The notes beneath the pieces were generated by a model that saw only the letters and a list, made by a program, of their open reading frames with translations, searched no databases and had not been told where the DNA came from. Below are positions 18,578-20,526 of a DNA stretch of 37,574 bases, piece after piece; position 1 is the stretch's first letter; the number at the start of each line of letters is the position of its first letter. This DNA comes from Nitrososphaerota archaeon (GTDB taxonomy: Archaea; Thermoproteota; Nitrososphaeria; Nitrososphaerales; Nitrosopumilaceae): the NCBI GenBank assembly GCA_021325615.1, contig JAJPGU010000018.1, forward strand, positions 1 through 37,574. The letters run 5' to 3'. Made by a program: the position numbers and the translations under genes.

Positions 18578-19972
18578 TTGTCTACCATAAACGCTCCTCT
18601 TCCTCCTGCACCCGTCTTGATGACATGCTTTGGTCACTGCGGAATAGGGCTTGGCGCGGAGGCATACCGTAGGCTTCTCATAGACGTGGGGGCAGACCCG
18701 CTCAAGCCGACATTAAAGGGAGAAAAGGAAGAGTCACGCGTTTTGAAAAGGTATGGAAGTACAATCCTGCGATTTCCAAATTCATATGGGGGAAGCGAGA
18801 TTCCGCTTATACCGCGGGCGCTCCTAGTTGATCTTGATCCAAGGGCGGCAAACCTCATTCTCCAATCTTATCCTGATCTTTTCGCACTCCGTGACAAGCA
18901 CGTCATCCATGGGGCAGGAGGTGCCGCAAGAAACTGGGCGGAGGGACGCAGCAGGTTCCTAAATGAGGTTACCAAAAAGTTTGACATGCAAAAACAGCTT
19001 GCGGGACTCTCGCCTGAACCAGTAAGAGGGTTTACCATTCCTTTTGCGATGGGGGGCGGAACTGGAAGCTCGTTTGCAAGCGCCTTCATGCAATACATAA
19101 AGAAGGATACCAAGGAACATGCCACAATTGCGTCATTTGGCCTGTTGCCTGAGTTTGGATGGGACCCGGTAATCTTTGAGGCTGCTGCTATCAATATTGT
19201 TATGAACCTTGAGCACCAGATAAAATACAGCGACTGCTCTATCCTGTTTTCAAACAAGAGACTGAGGGAGCTTGCACACAAGCACGAAAAAAAGACCGAA
19301 AAACTCCAATCTATAATAGACGATCTTCCAAAGGAACACGAGATTGGCTGGAAAGACTACAAGGGGATGAACCTCATTGCCGCAAACGCAATCTCAATGT
19401 TCATAGCATCCTTTGCAAGGGAGACCGAATGGGACATGTCAAACTACAGGACCTGGCTAGCAACCAAGAAGCCGCGGTTTGCCATCCCGTGGGTTATACC
19501 GGTAGTCCCTGAGGAAAAACAATGGGGAACGGACCTCATGTCGGGAGGCAAGGGAAACACCATGGACTCCATCGTAGAGCACATTAACAAGAGGAATGAT
19601 GCGGTCCTTTTTGACATTGACGAGAACGACATAAGGGACAAGGGAGGCCAGCGTGACTCCTGTGTTGCGCTTGTGAAGATTAAAGGGGAGTTTGACGAAA
19701 AGGAAAGGGCCGTCCTTAAGAACATGATAAAGGACAGATTCCACATAGAAGAATCCAGGATGATATTTGTCAAGATTCCTATCTTGGACACGGAGCAGGC
19801 CAACGTTACCATACTCGTTAACACCAAAGCCATAGGGCCCAAGATTCTAGAGATTGCAAGCGAGGCCGAGGCATCTTGGGACGGTTACAAGGAGGAGTAC
19901 GGCAAGTGGGGCCTTACCACCGAGGAGTTCAAGCAGAGCCTAATGGACGTCGTCCACCAGTTCAGTGCATAG
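18578..19972 (+). CDS. Archaeal tubulin homologue (artubulin)
   Basis: 464 residues, the length of a tubulin. Matches to eukaryotic tubulin run along the whole chain: GHCGIGLGAEAYRRL (19-33; tubulin GQCGNQIG), IPRALLVDLDP (78-88; tubulin VPRAILVDLEP), GAGGAARNWAEG (112-123; tubulin SGAGNNWAKG), the GTP-binding GGGTGSS (159-165), EHQIKYSDCSILFSNKRL (212-229; tubulin ENSDC...DNEAL) and KKPRFAIP (297-304; tubulin YPRIHFP). FtsZ lacks most of these. The last residue of the signature is Ser rather than Gly, and there are extra residues around 232-258. In the T7 region (ETEWDMSNY) no acidic residue falls at the place of alpha-tubulin Glu254, so GTPase chemistry is uncertain. The acidic C-terminal tail is absent. 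TTG 18578 is the only start upstream of the first strand. A tubulin-like filament is the likely product. Confidence 0.9.
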   Translation: MSTINAPLPPAPVLMTCFGHCGIGLGAEAYRRLLIDVGADPLKPTLKGEKEESRVLKRYGSTILRFPNSYGGSEIPLIPRALLVDLDPRAANLILQSYPDLFALRDKHVIHGAGGAARNWAEGRSRFLNEVTKKFDMQKQLAGLSPEPVRGFTIPFAMGGGTGSSFASAFMQYIKKDTKEHATIASFGLLPEFGWDPVIFEAAAINIVMNLEHQIKYSDCSILFSNKRLRELAHKHEKKTEKLQSIIDDLPKEHEIGWKDYKGMNLIAANAISMFIASFARETEWDMSNYRTWLATKKPRFAIPWVIPVVPEEKQWGTDLMSGGKGNTMDSIVEHINKRNDAVLFDIDENDIRDKGGQRDSCVALVKIKGEFDEKERAVLKNMIKDRFHIEESRMIFVKIPILDTEQANVTILVNTKAIGPKILEIASEAEASWDGYKEEYGKWGLTTEEFKQSLMDVVHQFSA

Positions 19973-19974
19973 GC

Positions 19975-20526
19975 ATGGCTGACTTTAACTTTCTAGAACA
20001 GGTCGCGATCCAGATTAAGCGCAACAGGGAACAGCTTACCGACGTCGAGGACGAGCTGTCCACAATAAATTTCAGGATTCATGAAATCCCACTTAAGATA
20101 TCGACCGAGTCAAACTTTGCAAAAATGATAGGGGAGCAGTATGTTGATGCCACGCAGGAACTTGAGGCTGCAAAGGAAAGGCTGCTCAAGGAAAAGGAGA
20201 CACTTGCCTCAAAGATAAACGATGACATGTCTACCTTCATAACGGAATTCACATCCACTGACCTTGTAATACCAATCGAGCCAAACCCACTAGTTGTGGA
20301 CGGCAACACGCGCTTTACCTACAAAAACGGTAGCACGTTCAAGAGCGTTTTTGACATCCTAAGCGAACTGCTGGGCCTAAGCTCGCCAATCCTTGTAAAG
20401 GACGTGATGTTCTCCGCTTCTGAGATTGTCATCAAGGTTACAGACGAGTACGAGGCAAAGCAAAAATTCCTGAGCAGCATAAACGAGGTTCAGAAAACCC
20501 TCTCAATCAAGCGCAGAAAGAGCTAG
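19975..20526 (+). CDS. Coiled-coil protein coupled to artubulin
   Basis: 183 residues from ATG 19975, two bases after the artubulin stop. Residues about 8-90 are heptad-like and highly charged (QIKRNREQLTDVEDELSTIN; ATQELEAAKERLLKEKETLA), predicting a long coiled coil. The C-terminal 90 residues form a compact alpha/beta domain (FTYKNGSTFKSVFDILSELL; VMFSASEIVIKVTDEYEAKQ). It is soluble with a basic end (KRRKS). Its function is unknown; tight linkage suggests an artubulin-binding or regulatory partner. Confidence 0.8.
   Translation: MADFNFLEQVAIQIKRNREQLTDVEDELSTINFRIHEIPLKISTESNFAKMIGEQYVDATQELEAAKERLLKEKETLASKINDDMSTFITEFTSTDLVIPIEPNPLVVDGNTRFTYKNGSTFKSVFDILSELLGLSSPILVKDVMFSASEIVIKVTDEYEAKQKFLSSINEVQKTLSIKRRKS

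Follow-up and report, generated by a model that had tools for sequence, protein, structure and literature searches.

An artubulin and its constantly associated coiled-coil partner gene in ammonia-oxidising archaea of the Nitrosotalea type and their relatives

In this study, we have analysed a stretch of 37,574 nucleotides (the window) from an ammonia-oxidising soil archaeon that carries a full-length relative of microtubule tubulin. The protein is an artubulin and, within the FtsZ/tubulin superfamily, belongs with the tubulins. Its gene is directly followed by a gene for a coiled-coil protein, and we propose that the two probably constitute an obligate two-protein system, in which the artubulin and an unnamed coiled-coil family have been kept together while several thaumarchaeal families diverged. 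The initial annotation of this DNA correctly identified the artubulin, but missed the constant partner gene downstream of it.

The artubulin gene runs from 18578 to 19972 on the plus strand, from a TTG start to a TAG stop, and encodes 464 amino acids; the frame call thus agrees with the coordinates and length given initially. An APLPPAPV stretch upstream of the first internal ATG is kept, supporting a start before that ATG, and the G+C content of the gene is unremarkable within the window. Full-length homologues with 53-98% identity occur across dozens of genomes. Compared to four relatives, the non-synonymous differences amount to 2-9% at saturated synonymous sites, raw proportions being used here because saturation makes dS inestimable. 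These homologues, the low non-synonymous difference and a Pfam match show that the artubulin is not a chance open reading frame. The Pfam match, to Tubulin PF00091 (62.3 bits, E 9.9e-17, exceeding the GTPase-domain cut-off of 33), is the only significant family in that search, and the NCBIfam search gave no FtsZ-type match. The initial annotation had pointed to two tubulin profiles; the second, PF03953 (Tubulin_C), has no match by sequence in the Pfam search, though the corresponding C-terminal domain is present in the structure model described below.

The best PDB sequence matches of the artubulin are Asgard tubulins (E 9e-18), followed by OdinTubulin, gamma-tubulin and alpha/beta-tubulins. 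An artubulin profile was compared with five tubulins (two of them partial), two CetZ and five FtsZ; the letters of alpha-tubulin, gamma-tubulin and CetZ were taken from PDB alignments and the Asgard stretches from PDB sequence matches. With this profile, the partial Asgard sequences score 82 and 70 bits, gamma-tubulin 57, alpha- and beta-tubulin 47 and CetZ1 9, while CetZ2 and the five archaeal FtsZ are not reported. The 47 bits of beta-tubulin refer to a provisional reference sequence. In a tree of 24 rows, artubulins and tubulins are separated from CetZ and FtsZ with 100/100. The same tree places the artubulins outside the five tubulins (85/87) on a branch of 1.94, a placement that comes with a long-branch warning; PMC13394414 likewise reports the position of artubulins among the tubulins as unresolved. 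The AlphaFold2 model, built with 49 sequences (pTM 0.82; moderate pLDDT of 76), displays the full tubulin layout, including a predicted C-terminal domain with strands at residues 361-415 and helices at 417-443 and 448-463. All 50 Foldseek matches listed are to tubulins, whether eukaryotic, Asgard or Odin, and the alignments span about 465 columns, with TM scores among these matches of 0.69-0.73 by query length and 0.74-0.80 by target length.

Profile scores, the tree and the predicted fold thus all put the protein closer to tubulins than to CetZ and FtsZ, as initially proposed. The initial annotation had named two outcomes that would weigh against its proposal: the comparison with FtsZ, CetZ and PF13809 came out in favour of tubulin, and the tubulin C-terminal domain is present in the predicted structure. 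Although kinship with TubZ has been argued by Findeisen 2014 (as cited in PMC9871819), the preference of all three lines of evidence for tubulin, in a comparison that covered CetZ and FtsZ, makes it highly improbable that a divergent FtsZ, CetZ or TubZ has converged on tubulin motifs. CetZ and FtsZ share the GTPase fold of the superfamily and the G-box with the artubulin, but lack its IPRA.LVDL.P, NWA.G and C-terminal H11-H12 segments and have profile scores near zero.

The tubulin motifs quoted in the initial annotation are all found in the translation. The T1 loop GHCGIGLGAE (residues 19-28; 18632..18661, plus strand, as for all following motifs) is the counterpart of tubulin GQCGNQIGA, and its residues G19, H20, G22, G24 and G26 are invariant. 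The tubulin-type segment IPRALLVDLDP (residues 78-88; 18809..18841) is not conserved in FtsZ/CetZ. It is followed by the T3 loop GAGGAARNWAEG (residues 112-123; 18911..18946) and the T4 G-box GGGTGSS (residues 159-165; 19052..19072). Apart from the last G-box residues and small changes, the T1, T3 and T4 motifs are kept in the 49 sequences. The deviations from tubulin that were pointed out initially are genuine as well: the final residue of GGGTGSS is Ser in 46 of the 49 homologues and Ala in the other 3, the acidic tail is absent, and the extra residues, first placed at 232-258, correspond to about 17 residues inserted between helices H6 and H7 in comparison with alpha/beta-tubulin, located by alignment around residues 237-256 (19286..19345). 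To these features we add the C-terminal H11-H12 segment WDGYKEEYGKWGLTTEEFKQSLMDVV / YKEEYGKWGLTTEEFKQSLMDVV (residues 434-459; 19877..19954), which aligns with tubulin and was not among the motifs noted before.

The T7/H8 region RETEWDMSNYR (residues 281-291; RETEWDMSNYRTWL; 19418..19450) is nearly invariant. Within it, Asp286 aligns by sequence with Asp251 of alpha-tubulin, and Asn289 would tentatively take the position of alpha-tubulin Glu254, likewise by sequence alignment and next to a part of the model with pLDDT below 50 (residues 282-286). Across the alignment this position, where model confidence is low, is Asn in 48 of 49 sequences and Ser in one. An acidic residue that triggers hydrolysis for the neighbouring subunit is found in alpha-tubulin (Glu254) and FtsZ (Asp212), and the alpha Glu254-type residue is absent in beta- and gamma-tubulin. 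As to other members of the superfamily, the genome's own FtsZ (a 331-codon frame) lacks GGGTG, and the artubulin is the only PF00091 protein with an intact G-box found in the genome. The genome's FtsZ-family protein, on contig C9, reads AGKSGA in place of FtsZ GGGTGTG, and a genome of family f13 carries GGNIGSG at the same position.

The partner gene (19975..20526, plus strand) starts 2 bases after the artubulin stop codon and encodes 183 amino acids. Its predicted structure (pLDDT 92.8) comprises a coiled-coil hairpin with helices at residues 4-51 and 60-92, followed by an alpha/beta domain at about 95-182. No significant match was obtained in Pfam, NCBIfam, the PDB or viral structures, and the best PDB sequence matches are designed coiled coils. 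Three candidate identities were rejected. In the case of Snf7/ESCRT-III, a search with 24 partner proteins at E values up to 1 listed 25 families without PF03357, and Snf7 is equally absent from the matches of the window's own partner. A resemblance of the C-terminal domain to Pcc1/KEOPS, suspected by eye, gave an hhalign probability below 1%. Tubulin cofactor A was brought up by a Foldseek match to Arabidopsis TBCA (probability 0.94), but the E value is 1.1, and helical bundles that have no relation to it obtain similar scores.

Practically all intact loci, including those whose artubulin identity is as low as 53%, have the partner directly downstream of the artubulin, with a gap of 2-22 bases; in two loci (L103 and L115) the gap appears slightly negative through start-codon choice, and in a third (L124) tblastn missed the partner, yet the same start sequence is visible. 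Among 33 representative loci, artubulin (32 loci) and partner (29 loci) are shared by the lineages; no other family is, the most frequent of the rest covering 12. Every one of the 68 genomes with artubulin in the order sample also has the partner. In the genus-level group of genome G237, of Nitrosopumilus type by its named relatives, 4 of 95 genomes carry artubulin, and these 4 and no others carry the partner; such co-occurrence can be inflated when neighbouring genes are lost together. A genome of family f3 (G002) has two artubulin genes, and a separate partner gene accompanies each of them (loci L042 and L043). This genome additionally encodes a canonical and a divergent FtsZ, and two artubulin-partner pairs are also seen in the MAG JAEMQG01 (L097 and L100). 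In families f2 and f8 the partner has homologues in the absence of artubulin, at full length in the former and over about the last 120 residues in the latter; the partner family is therefore not exclusive to artubulin. In three f8 loci (L164, L166 and L167) these C-terminal homologues of 138-158 amino acids are situated between Rpp21-like and Nep1-like genes, as judged by eye.

In a sample of 300 genomes from the order of the window genome, 68 contain an artubulin homologue, and all 23 artubulin matches in a phylum-wide sample of 398 genomes fall within the same family; the matches in families f3, f10 and f13 come from the order sample. The closest cultured relative found is Nitrosotalea devanaterra, with 86% artubulin identity, followed by Nitrosotenuis (about 80%), Nitrosarchaeum (77-79%) and a few Nitrosopumilus (76-79%), while MAGs labelled Thaumarchaeota, Nitrososphaeria or archaeon range from 51 to 59%. 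Since genome G087, from the same genus as the window genome, has its artubulin at 1373149-1374522, matching the coordinates in N. devanaterra LN890280, we assign the window genome to the Nitrosotalea type. The Nitrososphaera-like lineage suggested initially thus has to be replaced by a genus-level group shared with N. devanaterra. The large-genome family f8, which we take to be Nitrososphaeraceae, yielded no artubulin, and most Nitrosopumilus-type genomes are devoid of it. Because whole clades are without artubulin, it would be accessory rather than essential. The phage and plasmid collections yielded no artubulin, and two IMG/VR matches were discarded because they lie within structural genes of phages and appear to be fortuitous pattern matches. 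Thaumarchaeal artubulin loci are also present in BMAH01000059.1, labelled Gammaproteobacteria bacterium BBSC-SA02, and in DAIDAO010000036.1, labelled 'bacterium'; both records are probably mislabelled or mixed assemblies.

Beyond the partner, the gene context varies: Nitrosotalea-type loci have a TPR gene and a gene for 99 amino acids, and Nitrosarchaeum has Snf7 upstream. In two f10 loci (L116 and L120), artubulin and partner are located, by eye, in a core translation block between L7Ae/S28e-like and NDK/aIF2-like genes. The Snf7/CdvB-like gene just upstream of artubulin was seen only in Nitrosarchaeum, where the artubulins of three loci (L096, L098 and L099) are 77-79% identical to that of the window and the order Snf7-artubulin of L098 matches that described in PMC3349469. 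This arrangement speaks for a rival reading, in which artubulin works with ESCRT-III (CdvB/Snf7) in division, as proposed in 2012, and the coiled-coil neighbour is incidental. We consider this rather improbable, as no Snf7 neighbour was seen beside artubulin in the Nitrosotalea, Nitrosotenuis, Nitrosopumilus, f10 and f13 loci, whereas the coiled-coil gene is present in all of them, and as artubulin is missing from most Nitrosopumilus-type genomes. In the genome of the window a Snf7-like gene was found on another contig (C24), not adjacent to artubulin, and according to PMC3835317 Snf7/CdvB is also absent beside the artubulin of N. uzonensis. Snf7 adjacency is thus not general and is not counted as defining artubulin. 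Its restricted occurrence weakens, without excluding, a role in division.

Traces of decay are found in three genomes. In two Nitrosopumilus-type genomes artubulin is reduced to its C-terminal 234 or 168 residues, beside an intact partner, and in G183, from the genus group of the window, the partner is present as a degenerate piece only. The two C-terminal remnants (L044, 8421-9206, minus strand; L045, 3810-4325, plus strand) are open and 67-73% identical; upstream of the former are unrelated genes that appear permease-like, ArsR-like and arsenate-reductase-like by eye. The decay fits a loss of the pair in progress, and the C-terminal domain kept in two cases may hint at, but does not establish, joint action of this domain and the partner.

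We lean towards a model in which artubulin is a GTP-binding protofilament former and the coiled-coil protein its dedicated partner in a two-gene unit, which tethers, bundles or regulates it. From the computed fold, motifs, linkage and co-occurrence we infer that artubulin would bind GTP and stack head to tail into protofilaments, and that the partner would bind the filament or the subunit in order to tether, bundle or regulate it. As Asn occupies the acidic trigger position by sequence alignment, hydrolysis may be slow or absent, which would give long-lived filaments, or the trigger may be provided by another residue or by the partner. The likely role would be in the shape or spatial organisation of cells whose division relies on Cdv/ESCRT-III. 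There is a minor but appreciable chance that artubulin is instead a GTP-binding tubulin that does not form dynamic filaments, acting as a cap, nucleator or switch in complex with the coiled-coil protein. Most genomes have a single gene with Asn where a homopolymer would need the acidic trigger, gamma-tubulin lacks this trigger too, and the branch in the tree is long (1.94). Yet the Asn position was assigned by sequence alignment where the model is of low confidence, no other tubulin to be capped is encoded here, and the genome's own FtsZ is divergent.

Artubulins were described in Nitrosarchaeum (2012, PMC3349469) and Nitrosotenuis (PMC3835317) and have been analysed since in PMC9871819 and PMC13394414. 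The kind of protein is already known, and the novelty assigned to it initially was overstated. The Nitrosarchaeum and Nitrosotenuis artubulins are full-length orthologues (about 77-81%) with the same T-loop motifs and the same downstream coiled-coil gene. The upstream side differs: Snf7/CdvB in Nitrosarchaeum, a TPR protein and the 99-aa gene in the window. Asgard AtubA/AtubB and OdinTubulin (PMC13394414) are the top PDB sequence matches and have the same fold, but they are only about 18% identical over a whole-length structural alignment and the artubulins form their own long branch. AtubA/AtubB are a tandem tubulin pair, whereas artubulin is paired with a coiled-coil protein. In the published passages the neighbour discussed for artubulin is Snf7 and not the coiled-coil gene, and PMC9871819 speaks in general terms of uncharacterised coiled-coil genes in the surroundings of archaeal tubulin-like genes. 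A description of the partner beside artubulin was not found in the main-text passages, and figures or supplements could hold prior notice.

The constant partner gene provides a concrete handle on the poorly understood artubulins, through which both binding and polymerisation can be asked. The wider range presented here extends past the genera known so far to families with 51-59% identity; it may help to divide the long branch and thereby to place artubulins in the tubulin tree. If our model is true, ammonia-oxidising archaea would possess a prokaryotic pair of a tubulin and its binding protein that is open to reconstitution.
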